Shown one piece after another: positions 26,464 to 44,132 of a stretch of 47,571 nt of DNA. The stretch's first letter is position 1, and each line of letters begins with the position of its first letter. The DNA is taken from the NCBI RefSeq assembly GCF_019263595.1, contig NZ_JADQDD010000012.1, forward strand, positions 1 through 47,571, in the 5' to 3' direction. The position numbers and the translations under genes are program-made. The notes under the pieces are model-generated. The model was given only the letters and a program-made list of their open reading frames with translations, had not been told where the DNA came from and did no database searches. Source of the stretch: Pseudonocardia sp. KRD291. GTDB taxonomy: Bacteria > Actinomycetota > Actinomycetes > Mycobacteriales > Pseudonocardiaceae.

Positions 26464-26551
26464 GGGAGACAAGCCTCGCTGCGCTCGGTCGGCCTGGCGG
26501 CCGATCCCACCCCGATCGGGCGAGCACGGCGCCCCGGCCGGTCGGGGCGCC
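26464..26551 (+). repeat. Structured leader element, copy E
   Basis: It contains CCTCGCTGCGCTCGG (26474-26488), hairpin 1 GGTCGGCC-tggc-GGCCGATCC (26487-26507, one unpaired T) and hairpin 2 GGCGCCCC/GGGGCGCC (26528-26551). It ends 62 nt before the ATG of the small peptide gene. It is the most diverged copy in sequence, yet both hairpins are kept by paired changes. Confidence 0.65.
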
Positions 26552-26613
26552 CCGGTCCCTGCGAGTGCGCCCCACCCCAGCCGGGGTCGGGCACACGAGA
26601 AAGGGAGCCGGAC

Positions 26614-26745
26614 ATGGCTAAGAAGTCCCACCCTGGCGACGGGATCAACGGCAAGGGCGACAAGGGCTTCGCCCCCGGCCGGGGGCGTACGCCGCTGCGC
26701 ACCCTGACCGCGTTTGTGCGGGCGCTGCTGGGCGGGGTGCGGTAA
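26614..26745 (+). CDS. 43-residue basic Gly-rich peptide, possible precursor peptide
   Basis: A 43-residue peptide beginning MAKKSHPGDGINGKGDKGF and ending FVRALLGGVR. The first half is Gly/Lys/Asp rich, the second basic and amphipathic. GGGAG lies before the ATG and a leader element lies upstream. The next gene, an asparagine-synthetase-like ligase, starts 2 nt after its stop. Placement beside an amide-forming enzyme and a GNAT makes a modified-peptide precursor plausible. A free-standing small protein is equally possible; I see no known leader motif. Confidence 0.55.
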   Translation: MAKKSHPGDGINGKGDKGFAPGRGRTPLRTLTAFVRALLGGVR

Positions 26746-26747
26746 CC

Positions 26748-28085
26748 GTGGGCGAGATGTCGTTCCACGGGCCGGACGGAACCCATTGCACCGACCCGCT
26801 ACAGCTCACGGGCCGGCGGCCGGTGGTCGATCTCGCGGCGCTGGGGCTGCTGTTCGCCCCGCCCGCGCTGTTCGGCGAGTTCTACCCGGCATCGCCGTGG
26901 AGCGGCATCTCGCTGCAGCCGGCCACCTTCGGCGGCGCCACCTCGGTGGCGCCGCCGCGGGTGGCGTTCCCGGCCGCGGTGAGCACCTTGATCGCCGACA
27001 CCGAGGTAGTCGCGGTGAAGTTCTCCGGCGGCATCGACAGCCTCGCCGTCCTGGCGCAGGTCTGCCGCGCCGGCAGCAGCGGCCGCCGCGTGGTCGCGGT
27101 GACGGTGGACCTCGTCGACGACGACGGAGTCCACGCCGCCGACACCGCCCGCCGGTTGGTCCACGGCCTGGGCCTGGACTGCGAACTGGTCGTCATCGAC
27201 CCGGCTCGGTGCCGCCCGGAGATCAGCGCTCCGTGGTCACCGGTCGGGCCCCGGCTCGACGCACTGCCCCAGTTCAACGCCCTGGTCGCCGAGGCGGCGC
27301 ACACGGCGGGGGCGGGGGTACTGCTCTCAGGGGACGGCGCGGACGAGGTGCTCGAGGTTCCTCCCTTCGCCACTACCGCGATCGCCTCGGCACGCGGGCT
27401 GCGCGCCGCAGCCCGCTACGTCGCCGACATGTCCGGCAGGGGAGGGGGTCTGCTCGTCGAGCTCGCCGCCGCTGCGGCTCCGGCGCTGCCCTCGGCAGCG
27501 CGGGCCCGCGCCTATTGGGCGCTGTCCTGGCAGGACACCCTCGGTCAACCGGCCAGCCCGGTGCTGGCCGACCCATTCCGCGGGATCGCCGCCGAGTGGG
27601 CCAGCGCGTGGTGCACGGCCAGGACCGAGGGACACATCGCGGGCGGCGGGAGCTGGGCGGATCAGGCGGCGTGGGACGCGGTCTGGCCCCACGACCGGCT
27701 GCTGCCGGCCGGGGCCGTCGCGGAGGACTCGCCCTTCCTCGCTGAGGCCGTCCTCGCCGCGGCGCAGCAGCTCGGCGCCGCCGACCGGTTCGACCCGGGG
27801 CTGCCGACGCCGTATCAGCGGTGCAAGGCCGCAGTGGTCGAGTTGTTCGAGCCGGCCCAGCGCCCATGGTTACCCCGGCACAAGCAGTACTTCCGTCACG
27901 CCCTTGCCCGGCTCACCCGCGGCCGCACCACCACCGCCGAGCGCGCCATCGCCGCCGGCCTCATCGACCCCGACGCGTGGGCCGCCAACACCGACCTCGC
28001 GGTCACGATGATGGTCGCTGCGGTCGAGGACTGGCTCACCGGCGCCGACGCGATCGGCGCCCACATCCCAGGAGTGTCCCCATGA
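26748..28085 (+). CDS. Asparagine-synthetase-like ATP-dependent amide ligase
   Basis: A 445-residue protein with the synthetase domain of AsnB-type enzymes. VAVKFSGGIDSLAVL is the ATP pyrophosphatase P-loop (residues about 88-102) and VLLSGDGADEVL (191-202) the second signature. The N-terminal glutaminase domain with its catalytic Cys is missing; only about 80 unassigned residues precede the synthetase domain. Relatives adenylate a carboxylate and join an amine, as in asparagine, beta-lactam or lasso-peptide formation. GTG at 26748 follows the peptide stop by 2 nt; ATG at 26757 is an alternative. Its end overlaps the GNAT start as ATGA. Confidence 0.75.
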   Translation: MGEMSFHGPDGTHCTDPLQLTGRRPVVDLAALGLLFAPPALFGEFYPASPWSGISLQPATFGGATSVAPPRVAFPAAVSTLIADTEVVAVKFSGGIDSLAVLAQVCRAGSSGRRVVAVTVDLVDDDGVHAADTARRLVHGLGLDCELVVIDPARCRPEISAPWSPVGPRLDALPQFNALVAEAAHTAGAGVLLSGDGADEVLEVPPFATTAIASARGLRAAARYVADMSGRGGGLLVELAAAAAPALPSAARARAYWALSWQDTLGQPASPVLADPFRGIAAEWASAWCTARTEGHIAGGGSWADQAAWDAVWPHDRLLPAGAVAEDSPFLAEAVLAAAQQLGAADRFDPGLPTPYQRCKAAVVELFEPAQRPWLPRHKQYFRHALARLTRGRTTTAERAIAAGLIDPDAWAANTDLAVTMMVAAVEDWLTGADAIGAHIPGVSP

Positions 28086-29086
28086 CCACACACCCGACAG
28101 CCATCCCGGCCCCTGCCATCACAGCTACCACCATTTCGGGTGGACCACGGCCGGTGACCAGGCCATCCTGGGGAGCCCGCTCGACGAGCGCTCACCGGGA
28201 CGGAGCCGCGATGACGCCCGCACGCCTCCTGCGGCCGCTGGCCGAGCACGACCACCCCGCCGTGCTCGCGCTCGTCGATGCCGACCGGGTCCCCGGCCAG
28301 CCCGCCGCAACCGGTGAGCGCCTGAGTGAGGCCCTGGCCGGGCGCTCTCCTGTCGACAGCGGGTGGTGGGACGAGCTCGACGCCCTACACCACGACGTCG
28401 CCGTCGACGACGACGGTCACGTGCTCGGGGTGATCGCCTCCGGCTGGCGTGCCCGCGACACCACCACGGTGATCCTCTGGTGTCACGCCGGCGAGGACAC
28501 TGCCACGCTGCTCGACCTGATCGAACACGCGCTGGCGCGACACCCCGACTCCGACGCCGAAGCGTTCAGCTTCGCCACCGCACTCGGACTCGGCCTGGAG
28601 GCCCTACCCGTGCGGCACCGCGGGGCGACCGACGCCGCCCTGCACAAGGCCGGATTCACCGGCGCCGACACCTGGGCCTACATGCGCCGCGACCTGGCCC
28701 AGCCCGCCCCACAGCCCGGCCGGGCAGGCTGCACACCGATCACGGTCGGCGAGAGCTCCGACCTCGACGGCTGGCAGGTTGACGCGACCGGACCCGACGG
28801 TGACCGGATCGGGCAGGCCCTGCTCGCCCGGCCCGTCGACGGGATCAGCGTGCTGTTCTGGATCGAGGTCGAGCCCTCGCAGCGGGGAACCGGACTCGGA
28901 CGCCGACTGCTCGACGCCGCGACCGACCTCGCCCGGACCCACGCCGCGACCGAGGTCATCCTCTACGTCGATGACGACGACCCCGGCAGCGCGCGAGACC
29001 GCACCGCGGCCACCGCGCTCTACCGCAGTAGCGGATTCGACCTCGTCGACCGGCTGCACTCCTACGTGCGCCCGCGCACCCGATGA
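28082..29086 (+). CDS. Tandem GNAT acetyltransferase
   Basis: A 334-residue protein. After a Thr/Pro-rich N-terminal stretch of about 40 residues come two GNAT-like units. The first (about 45-210) lacks an obvious acetyl-CoA loop. The second has FWIEVEPSQRGTGLGRRLLDAA and ends with ALYRSSGFDLVDRL, typical of active GNATs. The two-domain layout recalls mycothiol synthase MshD, but this setting beside an amide ligase differs. ATG at 28082 overlaps the ligase stop; ATG at 28211 would omit the odd N-terminus. Confidence 0.7.
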   Translation: MTTHPTAIPAPAITATTISGGPRPVTRPSWGARSTSAHRDGAAMTPARLLRPLAEHDHPAVLALVDADRVPGQPAATGERLSEALAGRSPVDSGWWDELDALHHDVAVDDDGHVLGVIASGWRARDTTTVILWCHAGEDTATLLDLIEHALARHPDSDAEAFSFATALGLGLEALPVRHRGATDAALHKAGFTGADTWAYMRRDLAQPAPQPGRAGCTPITVGESSDLDGWQVDATGPDGDRIGQALLARPVDGISVLFWIEVEPSQRGTGLGRRLLDAATDLARTHAATEVILYVDDDDPGSARDRTAATALYRSSGFDLVDRLHSYVRPRTR

Positions 29087-29102
29087 CCGGCGGCGCGGAG
29101 CG

Positions 29103-29783
29103 TCAGTAGGTCCAGCGATCGAGTGCGCTGCCGCCGGCCCACATCATGTTCATCCGGTCCGCGAGCCGGGTGTATGCCTCTTCCTCGGCCGGTGTCAGCA
29201 CGACGTCGCCCCGGGTGCCCTGCAACCGGGCGGTGAGCAGCTCGGTGTCGGCGGTGGTGGCCAGGTCCAACAGCCCGTTGACCCGGGCGAACGCCTCGAC
29301 CAGCTCGCCGCCCGATGGTGGGGTCGTGAACGCGCCGCCGCTGGCCTCGGCGCCGGCGGCGATGGCCTCGGCCAGTTCACTGCCCGGCGCCATCGCTAGC
29401 GTGTGCCCCAGACACATCGCCGCAGCCGAGAGCAGCGCCAGGTCCCCGGCGTCGAGCTCGACGAGCCGCATCGGCCGATGCTCGTAGTGCCCGTCGGCCC
29501 CGAACAGCAGCGGCAGCGCCGCCGCGGAGGGATGCGAGCGGGATTGCGTCGCCGCGATCAGGTGCTGCACCCGGTTCAGCGCGTCCAGGGCGACCCGCCC
29601 GGCCAGCGGGACCGGCAGCACCGCGGGCCCGTCGGGGTCGTCCTCCTCCCACACCGCCAGGGTCAACAGCAGCTCCTCGACCCGGGCCAGCTCGGCGATC
29701 AGGTCGTCACCGAGGTCGGGGACCAACCGCCGCACACGCGCTGGCGGGCCCACCGCCTGCCCTGTCTGCTCGCACTCGCCCAC
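29103..29783 (-). CDS. Hypothetical helical protein
   Basis: A 226-residue Ala/Leu-rich helical protein with no recognised domain. It contains LIAELARVEELLLTLAVWEEDD and LALLSAAAMCLGHTLAM. GAGGAG precedes the GTG start at proper spacing. It faces the GNAT gene and its stop lies 17 bp past the GNAT stop. Confidence 0.6.
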   Translation of the reverse strand: MGECEQTGQAVGPPARVRRLVPDLGDDLIAELARVEELLLTLAVWEEDDPDGPAVLPVPLAGRVALDALNRVQHLIAATQSRSHPSAAALPLLFGADGHYEHRPMRLVELDAGDLALLSAAAMCLGHTLAMAPGSELAEAIAAGAEASGGAFTTPPSGGELVEAFARVNGLLDLATTADTELLTARLQGTRGDVVLTPAEEEAYTRLADRMNMMWAGGSALDRWTY

Positions 29784-30107
29784 CCGTCGCTCCTCACTGG
29801 ATTCGGCGCCCGAGGTGGACGGCCGCCGGGCACGCTAGCCCGCAGCACCGACAACCGCGGGCGAACAACGACCATCACGTCCGAACGGCTCAGTCCGCCC
29901 ATGTCGGATCCTGTGCCACGAACCGCAACGTCATGGCCAGGTAATCGCGCATTGTGTACGCGTGGTCATTGACCGGGCGCCGGGTCTGTCGGGGTCCGGG
30001 CTACGTACTCACATACCGAGCCCGCGACGGGGCCAGACCTGATGACGACGGCGGGGCCAGATCACTTGACGGGACCACGCGGCTTCGCCTGCGGCAGGAT
30101 CAGGGCC
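29784..30107. other. Intergenic region
   Basis: This 324-bp gap between the divergent helical protein and nitrilase genes holds no convincing gene. The middle (29950-30010) is somewhat AT-richer, as expected for promoters, but I could not fix one. Confidence 0.4.
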
Positions 30108-30851
30108 ATGCGGAACCCGTTGACCATCGCCGCGGCCCAACCGTGGTGTCGACCGGGCGAGATCGCCAAGAACACCCGCGCTCACGCAGCCCTGGTCCGT
30201 CAGGCCGCGTCACGCGTGGTCGTGTTCCCGGAGCTATCACTGACCGGCTACGACCTGGCCGCGCGGCCCCTCAGCCCCGAGGATCCCGTGCTCGAACCGC
30301 TCCAGGAAGCTTGCGCCGAGACAGGCGCCCTCGCGCTGGTCGGAGCGGTAACCCGTCAAGCGGACCGTCGCTACATCGCCGCACTCGCCATCGAACCCGA
30401 CACGATCACCGTCGCTTACCGCAAGACTTGGCTGGGAGGCAACGAAGCCGAGCACTTCGCCAGGGGCGACGGCCCCACGGCGCTCGCCGTCGACGGATGG
30501 CGGCTCGGGCTGGGAATCTGTAAGGACACCGGGTCAGCGCAACACACCGCGGGCACAGCGGCGCTCGACATCGACGCCTACGTCGCCGGGGTCGTCCACC
30601 GACCCGACGAACTCGCCGAGCAAGAGGCTCGCGCAACCGTGATTGCGCGGAGCTGCCAGGCCTACACAGCGATAGCCAGCGCGGCCGGCGCCGTCGGCGA
30701 GAACTACCCCGACACTTGCGGCGCGTCCGCTATCTGGGGTCCCAACGGCCTGGCTATCACGCGCGCCGGCCGCGAACCCAATGACATCGCGCGAGCGACG
30801 CTCTTCCAATTCTCAACCCACCCGCACAGCCCCACCCGGGGCCAGATCTGA
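30108..30851 (+). CDS. Carbon-nitrogen hydrolase (nitrilase superfamily)
   Basis: A 247-residue enzyme with the complete triad: Glu42 in FPELSLTGYDL, Lys106 in YRKTWLG and Cys138 in GICKDTG. The family cleaves amide or nitrile C-N bonds. The length is near the single-domain norm. ATG at 30108 fits the conserved start TIAAAQP; a longer frame from 30042 is unlikely. It lies downstream of the ligase and GNAT genes, past a minus-strand gene, so any link to them is only inferred. Confidence 0.82.
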   Translation: MRNPLTIAAAQPWCRPGEIAKNTRAHAALVRQAASRVVVFPELSLTGYDLAARPLSPEDPVLEPLQEACAETGALALVGAVTRQADRRYIAALAIEPDTITVAYRKTWLGGNEAEHFARGDGPTALAVDGWRLGLGICKDTGSAQHTAGTAALDIDAYVAGVVHRPDELAEQEARATVIARSCQAYTAIASAAGAVGENYPDTCGASAIWGPNGLAITRAGREPNDIARATLFQFSTHPHSPTRGQI

Positions 30852-30870
30852 GACTCAGACCGGTCAGTGG

Positions 30871-31125
30871 TCAACGGCGAATGGACTCCACAATACGCAT
30901 CGATACCGTCGGCGTTGCCCGCCGCAACTGCGCCCACACGGTGTTGCTGCGCTCGTTGAACATCGCCGCGGCCTGGGCCAGGATCGCCCTTACCTCGACG
31001 CCGTCGACGCCGCGGCCGGCCAGCTCCCGGACCAGGCCTGCCGTGCGACCCTCACCCACGGCAGCCCGCTTCGCCGGGGCCGCGCCGGGCGAGACCTCGA
31101 TGTGGGCGACACCGCAGTCGTGCAT
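30871..31125 (-). CDS. Hypothetical small protein
   Basis: An 84-residue protein with GRTAGLVRELAGRGVDGVEVRAILAQ and a basic C-terminus. GAGGA lies close to the ATG. It faces the nitrilase gene and diverges from the S4-like gene. No domain recognised. Confidence 0.45.
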   Translation of the reverse strand: MHDCGVAHIEVSPGAAPAKRAAVGEGRTAGLVRELAGRGVDGVEVRAILAQAAAMFNERSNTVWAQLRRATPTVSMRIVESIRR

Positions 31126-31175
31126 GCGTCCTCGGCGGCCGACGCTGTCGGTGTCCGGCGCTAGGTTCAGCGGTC

Positions 31176-31367
31176 GTGAGTACCGCATCAGAGGGCGCCG
31201 GCGATCACGTGCCGACGGTCGGGGAGCGTCTGCGCGCGGCTGGGCTGAGCGAGACCAGGATCGCCGCGCACCTGACGAACAAGGTCCTGACCCTCGACGG
31301 CGTCGTTGTCGCCGATCTCGACCAGAAGGCACCACCAGGCAGCAGGATCACCATCGGAGCCAGCTGA
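31176..31367 (+). CDS. Small S4-like RNA-binding protein, tentative
   Basis: A 63-residue protein. From GERLRAAGLSETRIAAHL through VLTLDGVVVADLD to PPGSRITI it follows the S4 pattern of two short helices then paired strands, found in RNA-binding proteins. The GTG start has no ribosome binding site and TAGGTT lies just upstream, so a leaderless transcript is possible. The assignment is by pattern only. Confidence 0.45.
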   Translation: MSTASEGAGDHVPTVGERLRAAGLSETRIAAHLTNKVLTLDGVVVADLDQKAPPGSRITIGAS

Positions 31368-31381
31368 GTGCACCATCGCGG

Positions 31382-31687
31382 TCAGTGCCCGGGCCCGCGC
31401 GACAGCGCCCCGCCAGGCCGGCCGCGGGGATCGTGCGGCCCGTCCGGGCCCTCCAGCATCGCCGCGGCCGCGGCGAGTGCATCGCGTCGCACCGGGGCGG
31501 GCACTGCGTCGAGGGCTCGCATCACCGAGTCGACGAGCGCGGCCAGACAGAAACCCACGTCTTGGCCACGCCAGCCGGCGTAGCTTCCCTGCGCGGCGGC
31601 GTGGCGCAGTGCAACCCCGAACTCGGCCAGCCGGTCCTTGTCGGCGCGTAACTGGTCCGCAGCCCGCTCTTGTGCCGCGTGCGCCAC
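31382..31687 (-). CDS. Hypothetical small protein
   Basis: A 101-residue Ala-rich helical protein (ADQLRADKDRLAEFGVALRH near the start). Its GTG start shares a base with the stop of the upstream gene (TAGTG), so the two are translationally coupled. Confidence 0.5.
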   Translation of the reverse strand: MAHAAQERAADQLRADKDRLAEFGVALRHAAAQGSYAGWRGQDVGFCLAALVDSVMRALDAVPAPVRRDALAAAAAMLEGPDGPHDPRGRPGGALSRGPGH

Positions 31688-32007
31688 TACCGACCGGCCG
31701 AACGAGGGTCGTCAGGACCGGCGGGGCGCCCGTGGGAGCTGCTCGGGCGCGGGTCGAGGGCGATCCGGATCGCGTTGGCCAGGTCCCGTACGGCTCTGCG
31801 AACCGGAAGTGGAACCGCGCGGCCCGCGTAGAGCTCGGTCGCCGCCGCGCGGAGAACCTCGCCGGCACGGATCGCGACCTCACGGTCGGTGATCAGGGAG
31901 GTACCGGACTGGATCAGCCCTGCGATCGTGCGTAGAGCCCGCGCCTCGGCTTCGGCCTCGGCGTCGACCGCGCCGTCGCCACGTCCATAGCGACGTCTCT
32001 CGCCCAT
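31687..32007 (-). CDS. Hypothetical small protein
   Basis: A 106-residue helical protein with ARALRTIAGLIQSGTSLITD and a Ser/Pro/Arg-rich tail. AAGGGG lies before the ATG. First of a two-gene minus-strand unit. The 460 bp upstream to the DUF3560 start hold leader copy A and no other gene. Confidence 0.5.
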   Translation of the reverse strand: MGERRRYGRGDGAVDAEAEAEARALRTIAGLIQSGTSLITDREVAIRAGEVLRAAATELYAGRAVPLPVRRAVRDLANAIRIALDPRPSSSHGRPAGPDDPRSAGR

Positions 32008-32313
32008 AGCCCGCCCCTTGTCCGCCTCGGAAGTGGTCGCCGCGGCCCGGCACTGAAACGCTCTCCCCGTCCCGGCGCCGGGTCCGCCGCGCGGCAGGAG
32101 ACTACCAGGAAGGGGAACAAACGTTCGAGTGATGTGGTGTTGTGCACCCAGCCCACGACCGCGAGGGACTCTTCCTCCGGGGACCCAGCTGGCCCGGAGC
32201 GCGCGCCGGAGAGCCCGACACGGATACGGCCGGTCGCGCGGGTGCAGGACCGTCTCGGGCCTAGCGAGGCTTCGCCGGCGGGCGGCGGCGAGGAACCCGG
32301 CCCGGGTCCGACC

Positions 32314-32443
32314 GGGTGGGACGTCGCCTCGCTGGCGCTCGGTCGCCTGCGGCGATCCCACTCCGGTGCGGACGAGCCGGAACCCCCGCCGTCCCTGCGG
32401 GACCCGCCGGTGGGCCGCGCTGGTGCAGGCCCGTTCCTGCACC
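32314..32443 (+). repeat. Structured leader element, copy A
   Basis: Opens with GGGTGGGACG, then CCTCGCTGGCGCTCGG (one base longer than in the other copies), hairpin 1 GGTCGCC-tgc-GGCGATCC (32341-32358), hairpin 2 GTCCC-tgc-GGGAC (32391-32403) and hairpin 3 GGTGCAGG/CCTGCACC (32422-32443). Hairpin 2 ends 62 nt before the DUF3560 start. Confidence 0.7.
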
Positions 32444-32465
32444 GCGCACCCGAAAGGCCCGCACC

Positions 32466-33584
32466 GTGACCGAGCACCAGACCGCCCCAGCCGGGACCGC
32501 CCCAACCGAGACCGCCGCAGCTGAGACCGGCACCGCAGCCCCGGGGCTGCGGATCACCCACACTCCCGCTGAGGGAACGCTCCTGGAGGGCACGGCCCGC
32601 GGGGACGGCGTCAACCGCGTCCTGCGCGCTGCTCCGATGCAGTGGAAGTGGTCGCCCACCCTGCACCAGTTCTACGTACAGCGATCCCGCGACCGGGTCG
32701 TCCCGGACCGGCATGGCATCGACGCGACCGCGACCGCCCTGCGGGCGGCCGGGCACACCGTCACCGTGGAAATCGACGTCGAGATCGGCGCGCCGACACG
32801 CACCGTGCAGGAGCGGGAAGCCGACCGCGAGGACCGCACCGACCGGCGCGTGGACATGCTCGCGGCGCGTTCAGAGCGCCGCGCCGGCGAGGCCGCCGCC
32901 GCGCGGCAGGCCCGCGACCGGATCACCGAGCACATCCCGTTCGGCCAGCCGATCCTTCTCGGACACCACTCGCAGCGGAGATCCGAGCGCGACGCCGAGC
33001 GGATCCACAACCTGACCGGCAGAGCCGTCCACGCCGACGAGGCCGCCCGGGAGGCGACCCGGCAGGCCGGTGAAGCCGCCGCGGGTCAGCGCCACCGCGA
33101 CGCCCTGCCGGTGACGCTGCGGCGCATCGAGAAGCTCGAAGCCGAGGAGCGCGGCTACCGCCGCATCCTCGACGGCTACGAACGCCCGTCCTACGACGGG
33201 CGCGGGCAGGTCCTGTACGCGAATCGGCACGACCCGGCGACCGGCCAGTACCGGGTGGACACCCAGGCCCGCCTCGACGACGTGCTGGCGCAGCTGGAGC
33301 ACTGGCGCGGCCACGTCGCCCGCCTGCAGGCCGAAGGGCAGAAGGTGTGGAGCCGCGCGGACTTCGCCAAGGGTGACTGGGTGCGGATGCGGGATGGCTG
33401 GGGTCAGGTCGTGCGGGTCAACCCGCGGTCGGTGAGCGTGCCGCACCCGATGGGCCTGGACTGCACCTGGAAGATCACCTACGACAAGGTCCTCGACCGC
33501 AAGTCCCCCGCGGAGTTCGAGGCCCTGCGCCACGCGACGATGACGAACCGTCCCCCGGACGAGCCCGGCACAGACCGGGCATGA
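32466..33584 (+). CDS. DUF3560 domain protein
   Basis: A 372-residue protein common on actinobacterial plasmids and integrative elements. The DUF3560 core reads HIPFGQPILLGHHSQRRSER (residues about 157-176). It is flanked by Arg/Glu-rich helices, likely coiled coil (about 115-150 and 190-240). The C-terminal part has WSRADFAKGDWVRMRDGWGQ, a small beta segment. Its Thr/Ala-rich N-terminus starts at GTG 32466 after GAAAGG. The function is unknown. Confidence 0.8.
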   Translation: MTEHQTAPAGTAPTETAAAETGTAAPGLRITHTPAEGTLLEGTARGDGVNRVLRAAPMQWKWSPTLHQFYVQRSRDRVVPDRHGIDATATALRAAGHTVTVEIDVEIGAPTRTVQEREADREDRTDRRVDMLAARSERRAGEAAAARQARDRITEHIPFGQPILLGHHSQRRSERDAERIHNLTGRAVHADEAAREATRQAGEAAAGQRHRDALPVTLRRIEKLEAEERGYRRILDGYERPSYDGRGQVLYANRHDPATGQYRVDTQARLDDVLAQLEHWRGHVARLQAEGQKVWSRADFAKGDWVRMRDGWGQVVRVNPRSVSVPHPMGLDCTWKITYDKVLDRKSPAEFEALRHATMTNRPPDEPGTDRA

Positions 33585-33699: not shown

Positions 33700-33846
33700 G
33701 CCGTGGGCGACCTGCCGTGACCGATCCCGGGGCGCGGTGGTGCCGGCGATGGGCACTCGTGGACAGGCCGGTCACCTGGGTGACGCCCGGAGGCGAGCAG
33801 ACCGCGGACGGGGCGAGCGGCGATGGACCGGGCCCCGTTCCGGTGC

Positions 33847-33978
33847 GGGTGGGACGCAGCCTCGCTGCGCTCGGACGCCTGCGGCGTTCCCGACCCGACC
33901 GGAGGAGCCCGAACCCCCGCCGTCCCCTGACGGGGACCCCGCGCACGGCCCGCTCGGGTCAGGCCGCGTCACCTGACC
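33847..33978 (+). repeat. Structured leader element, copy B
   Basis: GGGTGGGACG opens the core, with the shared CCTCGCTGCGCTCGG at 33860-33874. Hairpin 1 is GGACGCC-tgc-GGCGTTCC (33873-33890), hairpin 2 GTCCCC-tgac-GGGGAC (33922-33937), hairpin 3 GGTCAGG/CCTGACC (33957-33978). Similarity with copies C and D extends about 60 bp further upstream. Hairpin 2 ends 62 nt before the DUF4192 ATG. Confidence 0.75.
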
Positions 33979-33999
33979 GACCTGACCCGAGGAGCCACG

Positions 34000-34905
34000 A
34001 TGACCGTCCCCACCCTCCGCACTGCCGCCGAACTCGTCGCGGCGCTGCCGCTGCTGATCGGGTTCCACCCTGCCGAGTCCGTGGTCCTGGCCGCCATCGG
34101 CGAGGACGGGCGCATCGACCTGACGGTGCGCGCCGACCTGGAGCCTGTCGGCGGGTTCGGGCCGGGGGCCACGGAGATGCTGGCGTTGATCCCGAAGACC
34201 CACCGCCACACCGCAGCACTGGCGGTGATCAGTGCTCAGCCCCGCAGCGACGCCCTCGACGACCTCGCCCGCGCCGCCGTCGCGGCCGGGATCAGGGTTG
34301 CGGTGAGCGTGTACGCCACCGCGACCACGCCGGGCGCGCAGTGGACGTGCTGCTGTGGGTGCGGCGAGTTCGGGCGGGTGCCCGAGCAGAACACGCACCT
34401 GCAGGCGCAGGCGGTGTTCAACGGCCAGCGGACCCTGCCCGACCGTGACGCCGTCGCCGAGGTCCTGCGACCCGACGACGAGCACACCCTGGCCCGGCGG
34501 GCACGGCTGCTGCTCGCCCCCGGCCCGACCGGCCCGGCACTGGACCTCGAGCGGGCCATCGATGGGTTCCTCGCCGCCGGGGTCCTCACCGACGCCGCGG
34601 TGGTCGAGCTGGTTCGGTCGCTGCGCGACACCGACCGCAGCGTCGCCGTGCTCGCCGCCCGACCCGGGGACCTACGGCTGGTGCTCGAAGCGCTCGTGCG
34701 TGCGACACCGGCCGCATGGGCGGCCGGACCGGCCGCGTTCCTGGCCCTGGCCGCGCTACTGCACGGCGACGGGGTTCTGGCCGACCTCGCGGCCCAGCGC
34801 GCCGTCGCCGCCGACACCGGCGCGAGATTTCCCCAGCTCGTCGCCCGCCTGGTCGCCACCTACCCGAGCCCGGACACCGTCCGCGAGCTGCTCACCGCCC
34901 TCTGA
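34000..34905 (+). CDS. DUF4192 domain protein
   Basis: A 301-residue protein. The start TLRTAAELVAALPLLIGFHP and VVLAAIGEDGRIDLTVRADL are diagnostic for DUF4192, an actinobacterial family of unknown function. A CCCGCGEFG cysteine cluster lies near residue 115. The C-terminal half is Ala/Leu-rich and helical. GAGGAG precedes the ATG. Confidence 0.82.
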   Translation: MTVPTLRTAAELVAALPLLIGFHPAESVVLAAIGEDGRIDLTVRADLEPVGGFGPGATEMLALIPKTHRHTAALAVISAQPRSDALDDLARAAVAAGIRVAVSVYATATTPGAQWTCCCGCGEFGRVPEQNTHLQAQAVFNGQRTLPDRDAVAEVLRPDDEHTLARRARLLLAPGPTGPALDLERAIDGFLAAGVLTDAAVVELVRSLRDTDRSVAVLAARPGDLRLVLEALVRATPAAWAAGPAAFLALAALLHGDGVLADLAAQRAVAADTGARFPQLVARLVATYPSPDTVRELLTAL

Positions 34906-36006: not shown

Positions 36007-36286
36007 CACCGCGGCGGGACCGGATACCCCTGACCTGTCCGGCGCCCGGCTCGATCGAGCCACCCGGCAAGAGGCGAGCACGCCGGTCTGGGCCGGGCCC
36101 GGCCATCGTGCCGTCTGCATCGCCGGGCGGCGACATCCTTGCGGTCTAGCTCACCCCGAGGGTCAGGGGCTTGTCCGGCGCGGTGTGCCGGTACGCGTCC
36201 TTCGTGGAGCTGGGGTGACGAATCGCCCGAAGGCAGCACACCCGTGGCGGGGCGAGCGCCGATGAATCGGGTCCCCGTTCCGGTGC

Positions 36287-36377
36287 GGGTGGGACGAGGC
36301 CTCGCTGCGCTCGGACGCCTGGCGGCGTTCCCGACCCGACCGGAGGAGCCCGAAACCCCCGCCGTCCCTGCGGGGAC
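36287..36377 (+). repeat. Structured leader element, copy C
   Basis: GGGTGGGACG, then CCTCGCTGCGCTCGG (36300-36314), hairpin 1 GGACGCC-tggc-GGCGTTCC (36313-36331) and hairpin 2 GTCCC-tgcg-GGGAC (36364-36377). It ends 65 nt before the ATG of the next gene. Close to copies B and D over about 150 bp. Confidence 0.75.
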
Positions 36378-36442
36378 CCCGCCACCGGCGTGCTGGGGCA
36401 GGCCGCGGTTCGCACACAACTCCACACCGAAGGAGGCCAGCG

Positions 36443-36688
36443 ATGGCCAACGACGTGCCGACGATTGACGGCGTGCCCCTCGACCTGCACCCGGTCAGCC
36501 TGGTCAGCTTCGAGGACGGCTGCTCCGACAGCCCGGCGTTCGTGCCCGGGCACCACGACGCGGGCGACACCGTCCCCTGCCCCGGCTGCGCCGGCGAGCA
36601 CCGGATCGAACGCTCCCTGCAGACCGAGGAGGTCACCAACATCGAGATCCGCACGGTCGAGCCCGAGGAGGACGAGCCCGGGCAGTGA
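36443..36688 (+). CDS. Hypothetical small acidic protein with CPGC
   Basis: An 81-residue acidic protein. It has a DGVPLDLHPVSLVSFEDGC segment and a VPCPGCAGEHRIE knuckle that could bind zinc. The C-terminus is Glu/Asp rich. GAAGGAGG precedes the ATG, giving a strong start. Confidence 0.6.
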   Translation: MANDVPTIDGVPLDLHPVSLVSFEDGCSDSPAFVPGHHDAGDTVPCPGCAGEHRIERSLQTEEVTNIEIRTVEPEEDEPGQ

Positions 36689-37789: not shown

Positions 37790-37924
37790 CTTCCGTTTCC
37801 GGGGTGCCGCCCATAGTAGCGGGGTTCCCCGGCGGGCCCGTCGTGCAGACCGCCCTGCACGGGCCCCGCGGGGTGGACGGTGCGGTGCCTGGCCCGGGTC
37901 GCGTAGGCCGAACCGGTGGTCTAA

Positions 37925-38100: not shown

Positions 38101-38128
38101 GGCGAAGGGCGAGTATCGCCCACGTGAG

Positions 38129-38386: not shown

Positions 38387-38646
38387 AGAGTGATCAACGA
38401 GCCCCCGGCCACCAGCAGGTACGTCGCCGGTGAGGTGGGCCGACCCATCCTGTCGCTGGTCACCGGATCAGTGTGCCCTGAGGCGGCGGCGGGGCACATA
38501 TGCTCGCCGTGAGGTCAGGGCGGCAGAGCGAGCAGTTCAGGAGCCGGACCGGTACCGGCCCCCGGCCTGGGCGGTGGGGACGTGGTGACTCTGCACCCCG
38601 CCCGCGGGCTTGCCCGGCGATGCCCCGCCTGCCCGCAACCGACCGG

Positions 38647-38807
38647 GTGAGACCACCCCTGCGGTCGAGGAGGCCGGCGCCGGTGGCGACGAGGTGGTCT
38701 CACACCGGTCGGGCGAGCGCGGTGCCCCGCCGCGCCCGCGGTCGGGGTGCGGGCGAGTCACGTCCCACCGCACCAGGCGGTGGGACCGCCCCGGCCGATG
38801 GCCGGGG
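38647..38807 (+). promoter_or_regulatory. Structured leader of the DUF932 gene
   Basis: Three stems lie before DUF932: GTGAGACCACC/GGTGGTCTCAC (from 38647 to 38703, long loop), GTCCCACCGC-accag-GCGGTGGGAC (38762-38786, perfect) and CCCCGGCC-gat-GGCCGGGG (38789-38807, perfect). The last ends 30 nt before the ATG. The sequence differs from the repeated element. The stretch 38387-38646 holds no gene I can see. Confidence 0.55.
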
Positions 38808-38837
38808 GTGCCGACCCGCTCGTGAGGAGTCACTTCG

Positions 38838-39986
38838 ATGGATCTCGAGACGATGGACACCACCGCCCGCAACGCCTCCCTGCAGGAGGTCGCGGAGCTG
38901 CTGGAGACGCAGAAGACCGCCAAGCACGACGTCGTCGCGGCCGCGTCGGCGCTGGAGTGCCGCGGCGGCACGATCCGGGTCCGCGGCAGCTATCAGCGCC
39001 TCGACCTCGATGGGGTCAGCACCGGTGACGCGCTGCTGACCCCGACCCGGCTGGCCGAGGCCAGCGTCGCGGACAAGCTGCGCATCCCCACCGACTACCT
39101 GCGCCGGATGCGCGCGGAGAACGTGGAGCTCTACGACCACAACGTCAACGGCTGGCTGCGCCACCAGCCCGAGCGCCGCTTCCTGATGCGCGGCCTCGTC
39201 GACTCCCAGGGCGAGGGGTTGTTGCGGGCGATGTTGTCGGACTCGTTCCGCATCGTCGACAACCTCGACGTCCTGCTCACCGCGCTTCAGGGCATCGAGG
39301 CCGCCGGCGCGCAGGTCGACATCGCCCAGGCCGACCTCACCGAGTCGCGGATGTATGTGAAGGTGCGCTCGCAGGCGATCTCCGCGCTCGCCCCGGGCCT
39401 GCTCCGCAACTACGTCTCCCCGTTCTCCCGGGCTCGCGGCGCGGACAACCCGCTGGTTTTCGCCGGGTTCGTCATCTCCAACTCCGAGATCGGGCACGGC
39501 GCGTTCACTCTGTCCCCGCAGATCACCGTCGAGATCTGCGACAACGGCATGACGATGACGAAGTACGCCGAGCGGGAGGTCCACCTCGGCGGGAAGCTCC
39601 CCGCCGGGGTGGTGCGCTTCGCCGCCGACACCCAGAACGCGGCGCTGGAGCTGGTGAAGAAGACCACCCGTGACGCGGTGGCGACGTTCCTGAGCCAGGA
39701 CTTCCTCGACGCCCGCGTCGCCGAGCTCACCGCCGATGCGGGGGTCGAGATCGGTGACCCTGCGCCGGTGATCGAGCACGTCGCCACGGCTCTGCGGTTC
39801 TCCCAGCAGGCGCGGGAGTCGATCCTGCGCCGCTTCACCCAGGGCGCGGACATGAGCTCGGGCGGGGTGCTGCACGCGGTCACCGCCGCCGCGCAGGACA
39901 TGCCCGACGCCGACGAGGCCTACGCCCTCGAAGCGGCCGGGGTCCCGGCGATGCAGCGGGCCGCCGCGTTCGCCCGCACCCACTGA
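38838..39986 (+). CDS. DUF932 phage/plasmid-like protein
   Basis: A 382-residue protein of the DUF932 (phage/plasmid-like, TIGR03299-type) family. Features include the N-terminal LRIPTDYLRRM, the central FRIVDNLDVLLTAL and the conserved ITVEICDNGMTMTKYAERE. The family is common on plasmids, phages and integrative elements and its function is unsettled. GAGGAG precedes the ATG. Confidence 0.82.
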   Translation: MDLETMDTTARNASLQEVAELLETQKTAKHDVVAAASALECRGGTIRVRGSYQRLDLDGVSTGDALLTPTRLAEASVADKLRIPTDYLRRMRAENVELYDHNVNGWLRHQPERRFLMRGLVDSQGEGLLRAMLSDSFRIVDNLDVLLTALQGIEAAGAQVDIAQADLTESRMYVKVRSQAISALAPGLLRNYVSPFSRARGADNPLVFAGFVISNSEIGHGAFTLSPQITVEICDNGMTMTKYAEREVHLGGKLPAGVVRFAADTQNAALELVKKTTRDAVATFLSQDFLDARVAELTADAGVEIGDPAPVIEHVATALRFSQQARESILRRFTQGADMSSGGVLHAVTAAAQDMPDADEAYALEAAGVPAMQRAAAFARTH

Positions 39987-40003
39987 CCCCCTGCCATCGG
40001 CTG

Positions 40004-40033
40004 CGGCCGGGCCCGCACCCGCGGGCCCGGCCG
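40004..40033 (+). terminator. Strong hairpin between two same-strand genes
   Basis: CGGCCGGGCCCGC and GCGGGCCCGGCCG form a perfect 13-bp stem with an ACCC loop, 18 nt after the DUF932 stop and 59 nt before the next ATG. It is either a terminator or an attenuator. Confidence 0.6.
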
Positions 40034-40092
40034 CGCCGACCCAGCCCTGGTCACCGCCGTCCCCGTCGTTCCATCCTGGTCAAGGAGTACTG

Positions 40093-41136
40093 ATGACAAC
40101 CCTGTCCGACATCCAGCGCATCTTCTCCGTCCGCGGCATCAATCCCGACCGGATCTCCTGGTCCCCCGCCGGCTCCGCGTTCGTGCTCGCCACCGCCTGC
40201 GGCGGCTACGTGCGGTTCGCTCCCGTCGAGGACGGCACCACCCGCAGCGGCTGCGCCTATACCGCCCACAACGCCATCGGCGAGCAGACCGGGCAGGGCG
40301 GCTGCGCCTCGACCGCGCCGGAAGCGCTACTCCCGGCATTGCGGCCGCTCCTGGACCCACCCGAGCTGACCTACCTGCCCGACCGGGCCAGCACCGCGCA
40401 GCTGCAGGCCCTGCGCGACCTGGGGAACCCGGGCGAGCACCGCCCGTTCGCGCTGCACCTGGACTCGCCCGGCGGGCGGTGGATCCTGGCGCTGTTCGTG
40501 GCCTGGCTCGACCTCGCCGACACCGATACCGACGGGGACCCGGCCGGGGACGCTCCGATCAACGGCGGGGACCTGGTCACCGCACCCGGGCGGGGCTTCG
40601 CCGCGATCGGGCTCAGCGAGGACCTGAGCCTGCACGAGCTGGCCGTGCGCATCGACCGTGGCCGCGCCGCGGCGGGCGAGCATCCCGCGGTCGGTCTCAT
40701 CGAGACCTGCCTCGACACCGAGCGCGAGGACCGCGGCGGTGACGACGCCGGTGACGTCGCCGGCGGGAACCGGGACCTGGCCCGCGCCATCGCCGAGGCG
40801 CTGCGGTGCGACAACCAGCTCGTCACCTACCGCGCCCCGGGTCACCGCGCGGACGGGCCGGACAACGAGGACCGAGCCGGGTGGGCCGAGGCCGCCCTGG
40901 ACGCGGTCATCGCCCGTACCGGGGACGCGCGGTCCTGCTACCGCGACCCGGACAGCCTGTGGGAGGCCGGCGGGGACCTGGTGGCGAACCTGATGCATCT
41001 GGCCGACCGGGCGGGGCTCGACCCGCAGCTGCTCCTCGAGGCCGGGCACGAGCGGCACCGCACCGAGCACGTCTGCAGCCACGACGCGCGGACCTGCTCG
41101 ATCCCCGGCTGCCGGCTGTGCGAGATCGCCGCCTGA
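40093..41136 (+). CDS. Hypothetical protein of plasmid type
   Basis: A 347-residue acidic protein. The N-terminus reads TTLSDIQRIFSVRGINPDRI and contains SWSPAGSAFVLATACGGYV. The C-terminus holds HVCSHDARTCSIPGCRLCEI, four cysteines that could bind zinc. AAGGAG precedes the ATG. No known domain is recognised. Confidence 0.65.
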   Translation: MTTLSDIQRIFSVRGINPDRISWSPAGSAFVLATACGGYVRFAPVEDGTTRSGCAYTAHNAIGEQTGQGGCASTAPEALLPALRPLLDPPELTYLPDRASTAQLQALRDLGNPGEHRPFALHLDSPGGRWILALFVAWLDLADTDTDGDPAGDAPINGGDLVTAPGRGFAAIGLSEDLSLHELAVRIDRGRAAAGEHPAVGLIETCLDTEREDRGGDDAGDVAGGNRDLARAIAEALRCDNQLVTYRAPGHRADGPDNEDRAGWAEAALDAVIARTGDARSCYRDPDSLWEAGGDLVANLMHLADRAGLDPQLLLEAGHERHRTEHVCSHDARTCSIPGCRLCEIAA

Positions 41137-41148
41137 GCGCCGCGTCCC

Positions 41149-41188
41149 GTGTTGGTGGGCCGTCGAGAGCCGCGTGGCCCACCAACAC
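41149..41188 (+). terminator. Hairpin terminator
   Basis: GTGTTGGTGGGCC and GGCCCACCAACAC pair perfectly (13 bp) around a 14-nt loop, 12 nt after the previous stop. A likely terminator. Confidence 0.65.
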
Positions 41189-41422
41189 AGGCACGAGGGG
41201 GTGCGAGGCGTTGGGCTGCTGGTGCACGCCCCGTGGCCGTGGGGCGCGCACACGCTGGCAGCCCCGGGGCGCGGCGCGTCGATGAACCTGCCGCGAGGTC
41301 CCCCGCGGGTGAACCCGCCCCTCACCACCGGTGCTCGGCCGCCGGCCCGGTGCGGCGGGTCCACGCCGGAGCGACCACGGCAGAACCCCCGCCCGGCCAC
41401 ACCCCGCGCCGCCGGAAGACGC

Positions 41423-41451
41423 GGTGCGCCCCCGGCCCACGGGGGCGCACC
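41423..41451 (+). promoter_or_regulatory. Leader hairpin before parB
   Basis: GGTGCGCCCCCG and CGGGGGCGCACC pair over about 12 bp, ending 52 nt before the ParB ATG. The region 41189-41422 holds no gene I can see. Confidence 0.5.
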
Positions 41452-41503
41452 CGCCGGGCCCTGAGACCCGGCCGGGGCGAGCACGTACCGACCGGAGGTC
41501 GCG

Positions 41504-43129
41504 ATGACCGCAGAACCGATCACCACCAGCGCCACCCACGCCAGCACAGCTGGCGACGCCGCCACCGGACAGGTGGGTGAGCTGCTCATGGTGGACCCGA
41601 CCACGTTGGAGCTGGAGGTCAACACTCGCAGCGACGTTCGTCTGGACCCGCACTTCGTGGCTTCCATCCGCGATCGCGGCGTGCGTGAGCCGATCTCGGT
41701 GCGGCGCCGCGGCAGTGACGGTGTCCTGGTGGTGCGCAAGGGCCAGCGCCGGACCCTGGCCGCGGTCAAGGTGGGGCTGCCCCAGGTGCGGGTACTCGTC
41801 GAGCCGGAACCGGCCGACGGGCAGCAGACGGCGAAGGACGCTGAGGTGGAGCGGATCGTCGATCAGCTCACCGAGAACCAGCACCGCGCAGCGATCAGCG
41901 ACGCCGACGAGGTCGGCGCGCATCAGCAGCTGCTCGGGCTGGGCCTGAGCGAGGCGCAGAGAGCGAGGGTGACCCGGACCCCGGCCAAGCGGGTCCGTCA
42001 GATCACCGCGGTCGCGGCCAGCGAGCTCGCGGCCGCGGTGATGGGCCGCTACGACCTGGACCTGCTGCAGCTGCAGGTGATCGCCGAGTTCGACGACGAC
42101 ACCGAGGCGGTCAAGGCGCTGACCGTCACCTCCCAGCAGAGCCCGGCCCAGTTCGAGCACCTCGCGCAGCGCCTGCGCGATGAGCGCGACGAGCAGGCGC
42201 TGCGCGCAGCCAAGGCCGCCGAGCTCGCCGAGGCAGGAGTGACGGTCGTCGACACTGACGACCACGACGACGCGACCATGCTGGACCGGCTTCGCCCCAG
42301 CGAGGACGACGCCGAGGGGACGCCCCTGACCGAGGAGGCCCACCAGGGCTGCCCCGGCCATGCCGCCGACGTCGCCACCTTCCGGCACTGGCGCGACGGC
42401 ACACAGGTCCGGGTCACCTACCTGTGCCTGTCCCCCGACGAACACGGCCACCACCCGCGCTACAACCCCTCTGCTGCCGCCACCGGCGGCGCGGGCCGCG
42501 CACCCGCCGGTGAGACCGAGGAGCAGAAGGCCGCGCGGCAGGCCGAGCGGCGCCGGGTGATCGCCAACAACAAGGCGTGGGACTCCGCGGAGGTGGTCCG
42601 CCGGGACTGGCTCACCGCGCTGTTCGCGCGCAAGGCCGCCCCGAAGGACGCCGGGCGCTACGTCGCCGCCGAGCTCGGGCAGGGCGATCACGACCTGCGC
42701 CGGGCGATGGAGTCCGGCAACGCCCTGGCCTGTGCACTGCTGGGCCTCGACGAGCCGCGAGGGGGCGGCTACTACAGCGGCGTGGTCAACCCGATCGCCG
42801 CGGCCGCGGCATCCGCGGCCGGGCCGCGGGCCACGATGCTGTCGCTGGCCATGGTGCTCGGCGGCTACGAAGCCGGGACCCACCGCGGCAGCTGGCGCAA
42901 CTCCGCCCCGGCGACCCGGCGCTACTTCACGCGCCTGCAGGAGTGGGGCTACCAGCTCTCCCCCGTCGAACAGCTCGTCATCGACCCCGACAGCGAGGCC
43001 CCCGACAGCGAGGCCGCGGTGGGTGAGGCCACCGGCGTCGAGCCCGCGGCAGATGAGCCGGGTACCGGGGGCGACACCGGTGCCCCGGCAGACGACGACG
43101 AGGACAGCGGCCAGGCCAGCAGCGCCTGA
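41504..43129 (+). CDS. ParB/RepB/Spo0J-family protein
   Basis: A 541-residue ParB-like protein. The N-terminal domain shows LDPHFVASIRDRGVREPISV and VLVVRKGQRRTLAAVKVGLP, the nucleotide-binding ParB/Srx fold, followed by VDQLTENQHRAAISDADEV, the ENxxR motif. An HTH-like helical region follows (residues about 145-215). The long C-terminus is unusual and includes a CPGH...C segment and a helical domain. GGAGG precedes the ATG. No parA is seen nearby, so partitioning is not certain; a regulator is possible. Confidence 0.82.
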   Translation: MTAEPITTSATHASTAGDAATGQVGELLMVDPTTLELEVNTRSDVRLDPHFVASIRDRGVREPISVRRRGSDGVLVVRKGQRRTLAAVKVGLPQVRVLVEPEPADGQQTAKDAEVERIVDQLTENQHRAAISDADEVGAHQQLLGLGLSEAQRARVTRTPAKRVRQITAVAASELAAAVMGRYDLDLLQLQVIAEFDDDTEAVKALTVTSQQSPAQFEHLAQRLRDERDEQALRAAKAAELAEAGVTVVDTDDHDDATMLDRLRPSEDDAEGTPLTEEAHQGCPGHAADVATFRHWRDGTQVRVTYLCLSPDEHGHHPRYNPSAAATGGAGRAPAGETEEQKAARQAERRRVIANNKAWDSAEVVRRDWLTALFARKAAPKDAGRYVAAELGQGDHDLRRAMESGNALACALLGLDEPRGGGYYSGVVNPIAAAAASAAGPRATMLSLAMVLGGYEAGTHRGSWRNSAPATRRYFTRLQEWGYQLSPVEQLVIDPDSEAPDSEAAVGEATGVEPAADEPGTGGDTGAPADDDEDSGQASSA

Positions 43130-43138
43130 CCGATCACC

Positions 43139-43177
43139 GAGCTGCGGGGGCGGGCACCGAGTCCGCCCCCGCAGCTC
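43139..43177 (+). terminator. Strong hairpin after parB
   Basis: GAGCTGCGGGGGCGG and CCGCCCCCGCAGCTC form a perfect 15-bp stem with a 9-nt loop, 9 nt past the ParB stop and 32 nt before the next ATG. Confidence 0.65.
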
Positions 43178-43209
43178 GCCCATCCCGCGCCGAAAGGAGA
43201 TCCACGGCC

Positions 43210-43800
43210 ATGTCTGTCACGTTCCGTCCCAGCCCGACGCGCGAGTCTGAACGCGAGCTGGGCCATCACCTCGCGTGCACCGCCCACCCGTGCCAGGACC
43301 TGCGCGAGTTCGCCTCCTACGACCTGGCCGTCGCGGGCATCGCCGAGCACAACCGGCACTGCCGCGACCAGTACTGCACCCCGGACGCGGTCTATCCGGT
43401 CACCCGCCGCGTCGGCGACAGCGAGCCGGACCTCAACGTGTCCAGCTCCAACGCCATGGTTGTGCTGCGGGCGCTGGGGTTCCTGCCCGAGATCGGAGCG
43501 GACGACGTCCACGTCCAGAGCCTCGACGAGGAGGACATCGGGCCGGCACCCGTTCCGGGAGACGCGGACGGGGAGGACCCGCGCTGCGGGCAGTGCCCGG
43601 CCGAGGACATGCTCGGCCGGGTCGACCTGGCCCTGGCGCTGGCCCCGGCTGATGCCGGGATGCCCTCGCGCGATCTGAACACCGCCGGAACCGTCATCGA
43701 CTGCGGCCGGCGGCCGGGCTACCTACAGGACCGGCTCCACGCGCTGCGCGCGGTCGCGGTGTTCGCCCACGAGCGGGGCCGCGATGTCTGGTGGTCCTGA
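43210..43800 (+). CDS. Hypothetical protein
   Basis: A 196-residue protein with a Cys/His-rich N-terminus (HHLACTAHPCQDL, then EHNRHCRDQYC) and a second EDPRCGQCPAED knuckle, suggesting zinc binding. No domain recognised. AAAGGAG precedes the ATG. The 397 bp downstream hold leader copy D, a small CGGGTA/TACCCG hairpin near 43927, and no gene. Confidence 0.6.
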   Translation: MSVTFRPSPTRESERELGHHLACTAHPCQDLREFASYDLAVAGIAEHNRHCRDQYCTPDAVYPVTRRVGDSEPDLNVSSSNAMVVLRALGFLPEIGADDVHVQSLDEEDIGPAPVPGDADGEDPRCGQCPAEDMLGRVDLALALAPADAGMPSRDLNTAGTVIDCGRRPGYLQDRLHALRAVAVFAHERGRDVWWS

Positions 43801-44040
43801 CCGGGGTTGCGAGCCGCTCACCCGACACCGCGCCGATCGGGACCGGGATGGTCACGGGGACGGAGAATCACTGCTCCGGCACCGGGGACGTGCCGGGGCG
43901 GCGGGCACCTGGCCTGAAGTCCGGACGCGGGTACTCGCTACCCGGGTGGGTCCCTGGTCGGGCGGTGCAGGCAGGAGACGCCCGGAGGTCAGCACACCGT
44001 GGCGGAGCGAGCGCCGATGGACCCGGCCCGGGCCCGACGC

Positions 44041-44132
44041 GGGTGGGACGGAGCCTCGCTGCGCTCGGACGCCTGGCGGCGTTCCCACCCCGGTCGGGCG
44101 AGCCGGAACCCCCGCCGTCCCCTGCCGGGGAC
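44041..44132 (+). repeat. Structured leader element, copy D
   Basis: GGGTGGGACG pairs with CGTTCCCACCC (one bulge) around CCTCGCTGCGCTCGG (44054-44068). Hairpin 1 is GGACGCC-tggc-GGCGTTCC (44067-44085) and hairpin 2 GTCCCC-tgcc-GGGGAC (44117-44132). It ends 65 nt before the ssb ATG. Similarity to copies B and C reaches about 60 bp upstream. Confidence 0.75.

Follow-up and report, generated by a model that had tools for sequence, protein, structure and literature searches.

A repeated structured element ahead of start codons in Pseudonocardia: a probable new family of single-strand DNA control elements

Promoters that function on single-stranded DNA have been shown for enterobacterial plasmids such as F, where, according to excerpts of PMC9849209, Frpo1 and Frpo2 act in vivo as single-strand promoters and Frpo carries -35 and -10 boxes. 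In the pLS20 family of Bacillus, EGeRS1 is described in excerpts of PMC8708921 as a conserved structured sequence ahead of the ribosome-binding site (RBS) of several establishment operons that show no recognisable sigma-A promoter, and, for part of that family, the same source reports that it is unknown how establishment genes are activated on entry. Here, we analyse a window of 47,571 nucleotides (nt), the whole stretch of DNA under study, from Pseudonocardia sp. KRD291 (contig NZ_JADQDD010000012.1), in which a structured element is repeated shortly ahead of the start codons of several genes. We conclude that this element is a new family of an already known kind of single-strand control element, and we consider it probable, though well short of certain, that the family is actinobacterial and serves leading-region genes of Pseudonocardia conjugative plasmids and integrated elements.

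Like EGeRS1, the element is a conserved sequence that lies right ahead of the RBS of several genes in one conjugative element, a close likeness in anatomy. It differs in that EGeRS1 measures 420 to 750 bp and is reported to have the non-template strand as the transferred one; strand-specific covariation was not seen for EGeRS1 in these excerpts of PMC8708921. In strand and place, the element is likened to the Frpo/ssi elements of plasmids F and ColIb-P9, which form a long hairpin of the template strand and occur in more than one copy directly ahead of leading-region genes that include ssb; for the Pseudonocardia copies, a place in the leading region is probable. Unlike Frpo, the Pseudonocardia element is GC-rich, has a tip of variable length (about 30 to 160 nt), and occurs together with both TrwC-type and VirD2-like relaxases; in this analysis it was found almost only in Pseudonocardia. 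No sequence relation to Frpo was seen, since covariance model R1 had no match at E<=0.001 in F or in three of its relatives (L127 and L129-L131). RNA leaders in Rfam 15 share with the element the covarying helices ahead of start codons, but their fold lies on the other strand, and the proposal that no named family applies held against that database, which gave no window match at gathering scores; in two related plasmid regions, Rfam matched only ALIL and a hammerhead, neither of them on the element. That hammerhead is a type II ribozyme (RF02276, 56.5 bits) at 30245-30312 of the Pseudonocardia alni plasmid L025, between ssb and the next annotated gene. Integron attC sites are likewise repeated imperfect hairpins with a variable tip, in which the fold of one strand is the active one; compared by description, the element differs from them in its bond to the gene behind it, whose start codon lies at a tightly kept distance, and in its long conserved sequence. 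A mobile hairpin or integron cassette was considered among the possible identities. Within the open-licence literature, which leaves most subscription papers outside, we found no paper on the leading regions of Pseudonocardia conjugative plasmids or on single-strand DNA promoters of Actinobacteria.

Anatomy, distribution and covariation

The original prediction placed five copies at 26464-26551, 32314-32403, 33847-33937, 36287-36377 and 44041-44132, each with a core motif followed by two hairpins. All five are present in the sequence; the core, CCTCGCTGCGCTCGG, is exact in four of them and has one extra base in the fifth (32329-32344), and our count agrees with the 62, 62, 62, 65 and 65 nt given from hairpin 2 to the start codon. 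The repeat is thus real, but the 90 nt assigned to it form only the middle of a larger unit of 200 to 330 nt, whose 3′ end lies at the RBS. Upstream, the alignable conserved sequence of three window copies reaches back to about 33761, 36203 and 43956, and the downstream limit, according to alignment with relatives on Pseudonocardia plasmids, is near the Shine-Dalgarno sequence. The hairpins had to be reinterpreted accordingly: hairpin 1 caps a longer stem, which in the copy at 44041 is GCGGGTGGGAC / GTTCCCACCCCG, and hairpin 2 is a small side hairpin. In the coding orientation, the element begins with a basal stem, the conserved CGCCCGAAGGTCAGCAC, a second stem and a linker with CGATGAACC, and continues with a third stem (GCGGGTGGGAC / TCCCACCCGC), whose variable tip, of about 30 nt in one class and about 155 nt in another, holds the core motif and hairpin 1. 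Next come the side hairpin and the 3′ arms of the outer stems, and after them the Shine-Dalgarno sequence and then the start codon.

In the genome that contains the window (525 contigs, 6.57 Mb, 96.5% complete), there are exactly four exact 15-base cores, all on the same contig and strand, while a reversed control pattern of the core had no match in these 525 contigs. A wider covariance model adds two diverged copies on another contig of this genome (C481), and the window holds a weaker copy ahead of the gene at 38838 (model match 38578-38772, E 0.013). The regions ahead of the genes at 41504 and 45134 are strongly structured and have no covariance-model match.

A covariance model built from 16 copies, with genome matches counted at E<=1e-4, matched 30 of the 62 Pseudonocardia genomes, the present one included. 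Outside the genus, one of 100 other genomes drawn from the order had a match, and none of 118 did in a phylum-wide draw, under strict filters that lose weak matches in both cases. Plasmids of Rhodococcus antarcticus gave blastn matches in two records, and one region there matches the model (E 3.4e-5). The resulting alignment comprises 121 matches from 48 sources, one of them the Rhodococcus match; it includes one match that is the opposite strand of another copy (L080:7345-7499, plus strand), and copies with long tips can match twice. A scan for short DNA patterns over all genomes returned mostly chance hits among the matches listed: of the 118 pattern loci listed, nine have a model match, all of them in Pseudonocardia. 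A phage origin was considered and set aside, as blastn returned no phage record. Of nine pattern loci scanned on viral contigs, one matches the model (L255, from a viral collection, 1475-1652, 59.6 bits).

The link to start codons, which the original prediction had named as a test, is tight. A start codon with a Shine-Dalgarno-like sequence follows 119 of the 121 matches, 114 of them at 16 to 32 nt from the model end, and 107 of these 114 starts are ATG. Under the same rule, random places in the same sources had a start in 448 of 1210 cases, at 16 to 32 nt in 98 of 1210, with ATG in 22; some of the starts picked by the rule are doubtful, such as that for the match at 32275-32410, which differs from the DUF3560 start. 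The genes behind the copies are largely unrelated (47 coding-sequence starts are less than 55% alike) and include many ssb variants, DUF4192 proteins, small CPGC proteins and others.

The paired changes noted in the five window copies hold in the wide alignment, where both sides change in 38 of the 45 model pairs and the share of paired cells is 95.0%, compared with 82.9% in shuffles. The covariation score is 0.322 (0.122 shuffled), a value reached by none of 500 shuffles, and pairs slid by one to three columns score only 0.020 to 0.052. The covariation is also strong on a tree, with 147 same-branch changes in structure pairs where 38.8 are expected, and 18 of the 38 testable pairs at p<0.005. 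Slid control pairs, taken as the first 120, of which 99 were testable, gave 127 simultaneous changes against 87.0 expected and 3 of 99 at p<0.005, so the tree null is somewhat lenient.

The strand that folds

The conserved fold belongs to the complementary (template) strand and not to the mRNA, a conclusion that is well supported. An mRNA leader would tolerate G.U pairs in the mRNA, whereas a structure of the complementary strand tolerates G.T, which appears as A.C on the coding strand. For a MAFFT alignment made in the coding orientation and without a structure model, the RNAalifold consensus was -57.5 for the complement and -28.2 for the coding strand, or -19.5 and -4.5 with DNA parameters. 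In the model alignment, the complement-strand pairs of the 121 matches contain 612 G.T and 30 A.C; for 45 representatives, the figures are 230 and 11, with 33 pair columns against one. Within columns dominated by Watson-Crick pairs, G.T on the complement stays near its shuffle value (260 vs 296 shuffled), while A.C is depleted (23 vs 110), as are other mismatches (224 vs 752).

Single copies behave in the same way. With DNA parameters, the complement gave the better fold in 29 of 31 copies, by a mean of -8.7 kcal/mol, and the Watson-Crick-only folds of these copies contain 92 A.C and 22 G.T among the 1x1 mismatches of the coding strand, a ratio inflated by related copies, since the distinct contexts are nearly even at 13 and 12. 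Two of the 31 are window regions without a model match, and in these sets the peptide-gene copy of the related plasmid region L026 ends 26 nt short of the start codon (32315); in the long-fold analysis, this copy and one in L021 are misplaced by 26 to 29 nt. In the basal flank outside the model, which could be tested in 114 of the 121 matches, the coding strand has 237 A.C and 58 G.T, while swapped partners give 2.15:1, with mismatches scored alike. As a positive control, we folded F Frpo1, Frpo2 and six relatives in cuts of about 385 nt; in all eight of these mutually related sites, the better fold is that of the transferred strand, and the mismatches (A.C 12, G.T 0) carry the same strand signature as the Pseudonocardia element.

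Several observations weigh against this assignment. The 120 control windows lean in the same direction as the 31 copies (mean -2.6, standard deviation 7.05), which means that the strand difference is partly one of composition, and base composition likewise explains part of the asymmetry in the flank, where, moreover, only 5 of 114 copies show a strong extension (score >=15). The near-even mismatch contexts given above belong here, as does the fact that the 121 matches are mutually related and were aligned with a model in the complement orientation. The positive control, for its part, depends on the cut: 230 nt ahead of F ssb gave +1.9, with the coding strand slightly better, and 330 nt gave -3.1. 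For 3785 and DUF932, two more F genes considered as candidate sites, the values were +1.1 to +7.6, and the F control windows had a mean of +2.8 (standard deviation 5.0).

Gene module, orientation and candidate origin of transfer

Among named Pseudonocardia plasmids and integrated elements, several have the copies in a one-directional module together with DUF932-annotated or related, ParB_N-like, ssb and bifunctional primase/polymerase (Prim-Pol) genes, and the module of several of them also includes DprA. The window carries four module genes (38838, 41504, 44198 and 46379) before its end at 47571. Its features are as follows, where the strand given for an element copy is the strand predicted to fold.

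26435..26613, minus: element copy 1, diverged, ahead of the 43-amino-acid peptide gene (model match 26435-26536, E 0.00018; core 26464-26551)
26614..26745, plus: 43-amino-acid peptide gene; an Asn-synthase-like gene is next (26748-28085)
32264..32465, minus: element copy 2, with one inserted base in the CCTCGCTG motif (model match 32275-32410, E 3.5e-11; outer pair from the Watson-Crick-only fold)
32466..33584, plus: DUF3560 gene, GTG start (PF12083, E 1.1e-21)
33761..33993, minus: element copy 3 (model match 33775-33978, E 3.1e-29)
34000..34905, plus: DUF4192 gene (PF13830, E 2.7e-36)
36203..36440, minus: element copy 4 (model match 36215-36418, E 3.7e-28)
36443..36688, plus: gene of an 81-amino-acid CPGC-motif protein (no Pfam match at E<=0.01)
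38578..38821, minus: weak diverged element copy (model match as above; long fold)
38838..39986, plus: gene with DUF932-annotated relatives on two Pseudonocardia plasmids (phmmer E 1.3e-138 to the pLS2-2 gene; no match in Pfam itself at E<=1)
41290..41503, minus: candidate element region, highly structured, unmatched by the model (from folding)
41504..43129, plus: ParB_N-like gene (PF02195, E 0.0016, under its cut-off; phmmer E 5.5e-166 to a plasmid relative)
43945..44190, minus: element copy 5, the best in the window (model match 43970-44172, E 8e-32)
44198..44611, plus: ssb (PF00436, E 9.5e-18)
45134..45610, plus: WhiB-like regulator of the same module (PF02467, E 3.1e-26)
46379..47458, plus: Prim-Pol (PF09250, E 3.2e-39)

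The neighbouring genes recall those of F, whose leading region has ssb, ParB-type and DUF932 genes in one direction toward traM; against this likeness, hhalign relates the proteins only weakly to the DUF932 and ParB proteins of F (probabilities 16.6 and 20).

Relaxase genes typically lie on the lagging side near the origin of transfer (oriT), as stated in excerpts of PMC11541004, and their position relative to the copies is therefore informative. A gene for a TrwC-type or VirD2-like relaxase was found within 60 kb of 68 of the 116 genome copies, and 62 of these 68 copies face the relaxase gene and share its direction, with both relaxase types represented. This tally covers 116 genome places, with plasmid records excluded and some relaxase rows left out, and the TrwC search covered all but two of the 30 matched genomes; the only omitted relaxase row closer than 60 kb, a fragment on G008:C50, has the same direction and strand, so the tally stands. 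If the relaxase genes here, too, lie near oriT on the lagging side, then with the copies facing them the module would be the leading region and the folding strand the one that enters first; thus, the transferred strand is probably the template strand of the module genes. Speaking against this are the 48 of 116 copies with no relaxase gene found within 60 kb, and among the 68 the five that face away and the one that is opposite. Two of the five facing-away copies are on G078:C121 and would face the relaxase if that contig were circular. The opposite case is a lone copy (G014:C2:1502181-1502308) that faces a TrwC gene of opposite direction. On the window's own contig, neither a TrwC-type nor a VirD2-like relaxase was matched. 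A block around TATGCATCAA is conserved directly ahead of mobF in six plasmid regions (L022, L024, L025, L026, L028 and L126), one of the six copies differing at its start, and on this pattern of conservation it may be a candidate oriT/nic site.

Some further features of the window deserve mention. Behind the first element copy are the 43-amino-acid peptide gene, the Asn-synthase-like gene and an open reading frame (ORF) with a GNAT domain (26614-29086); L026 has a similar peptide gene and an Asn-synthase-related gene (about 32315-33106), and albusnodin-type lasso peptide clusters lie within the module of three other plasmids. Possibly, then, peptide natural products are encoded in the leading region. 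The minus-strand genes at 4780-16190, with domains of GAPDH, UvrC and lumazine synthase, are chromosomal in look, which means that the window may contain the border of an integrated element. One of the ORFs there (14763-16190) fuses a PBP_like_2 domain to a DMRL_synthase domain.

Proposed mechanism and other explanations

As the fold lies on the strand that probably enters first, the most likely role of the hairpin is to turn on, while the DNA is single-stranded, the genes that enter early. We regard action as promoters as the most likely role of the family, with moderate support. During conjugation, the one DNA strand entering the recipient would be the template strand of the module genes, and before conversion to double-stranded DNA, each copy would fold into a long branched hairpin made of a basal stem, a second long stem, the side hairpin and the third stem with its variable tip, the basal stem closing beside the Shine-Dalgarno sequence. 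RNA polymerase, possibly helped by a plasmid factor or an alternative one, could then start at the stem duplex and exit at its base into the gene, reaching the start codon within tens of bases. The product would be a short early burst of SSB and of ParB-like, DUF932-like, DUF3560 and DUF4192 proteins, probably with Prim-Pol, ending when the hairpin is lost as the DNA becomes double-stranded. Read-through mRNA from upstream would contain both arms and could mask its own RBS.

The search for promoter boxes, made on sets of 45 and 47 non-homologous starts (and, for the profile anchored at the start codon, on 15 only), does not favour an ordinary promoter in the arms. TANNNT, as a -10 box, was found in none of the 45 coding-side arms and in 2 of the 45 non-template arms, a difference from Frpo and a point against promoter action; [TC]TGAC occurs often in the non-template arm (24 of 45 vs 3.9 shuffled) and looks like part of a -35 box that has no -10. 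Sigma-70/ECF boxes in the arms were rejected as the promoter: GGAAC is common on the complement (in 32 of 45), but in our reading the arm that holds it is the wrong one for a transcript running into the gene. Little is conserved in the 50 nt ahead of the element, with TANNNT in 0 of 47 (9% shuffled), and an antisense -10 (ANNNTA) was found in 1 of 47 starts (2%, vs 28% shuffled); because TA is rare overall in these sequences, both tests carry less weight. The missing -10 box implies either another sigma factor or helper, or a site for priming instead of transcription. A bolder version of the promoter reading, which we offer tentatively and with more doubt than belief, is an undescribed kind of single-strand promoter that has no sigma-70 -10 box and arose separately from Frpo in Actinobacteria. 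Its genes would be doubly silent when double-stranded, with no double-stranded promoter and with read-through mRNA sequestering its own RBS, and initiation would have to take another route, for instance through an alternative sigma factor, a factor encoded by the plasmid or the primase of the element itself.

Among the other explanations, a single-strand initiation site, at which a primase (perhaps the module's own Prim-Pol) or primosome proteins would be drawn to the folded transferred strand and begin synthesis of the complementary strand, with gene expression as a by-product, would draw on the same strand evidence, on the SSB and Prim-Pol encoded in the module and on the failure to find a sigma-70 -10 box in the arms. 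It is doubtful, and we give it a small chance, as priming requires no tight spacing to the start codon and Shine-Dalgarno sequence, yet the 114 of 121 matches described above have it, ahead of many unrelated genes. An antisense RNA, in which a transcript of the opposite strand folds and regulates the gene, is unlikely. Its fold would be on the right strand, where G.T (as G.U) is freely tolerated, and the conserved G.T pairs would suit such an RNA too, which counts against our preferred interpretation. Its promoter, however, would fall inside the first codons of unrelated genes, where the antisense -10 is as scarce as noted (the shuffle being blind to codon constraints as well as to the rarity of TA); furthermore, Frpo DNA has the same wobble signature, and the orientation toward relaxase genes would be left unexplained.

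Very unlikely, in our view, is a double-stranded regulatory unit, be it an ordinary promoter with operators, a cruciform or a block to read-through like EGeRS1. The precedent of pLS20, with conserved repeats directly ahead of the RBS of several establishment operons and no visible promoter in excerpts of PMC8708921, speaks for it, but a double-stranded site or cruciform would show no strand preference, while the asymmetry here is large, and the transferred strand reported for pLS20 in those excerpts is the non-template one, whereas the orientation here suggests the opposite. Finally, the cis-acting RNA leader on the mRNA of the original prediction accounts for the fixed spacing, the covariation and the hairpins close to the start codon, but hardly any likelihood is left to it, because the consensus fold of the coding strand reaches half the score of the complement, the conserved pairs match the complementary strand and not the mRNA, their G.T pairs turn into A.C in the mRNA, and a leader with an ordinary promoter would need a box upstream of the element, where TANNNT is absent from all 47, a point weaker than the strand evidence. 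What stands of the "shared promoter-leader unit" proposed there is the structured unit shared at a fixed distance, with the promoter surviving only as one of single-stranded DNA.

If the single-strand promoter reading is true, Actinobacteria would possess a single-strand entry switch that operates with two relaxase classes, on plasmids as well as integrated elements, and an easily found signature would mark genes that are maybe expressed first, many of them of unknown function. Such genes would be candidates for anti-defence and establishment roles. In addition, the comparison of G.T with A.C at covarying pairs, which tells the folding strand and agreed with the biology of F-type plasmids, could serve in searches for further elements of single-stranded DNA.

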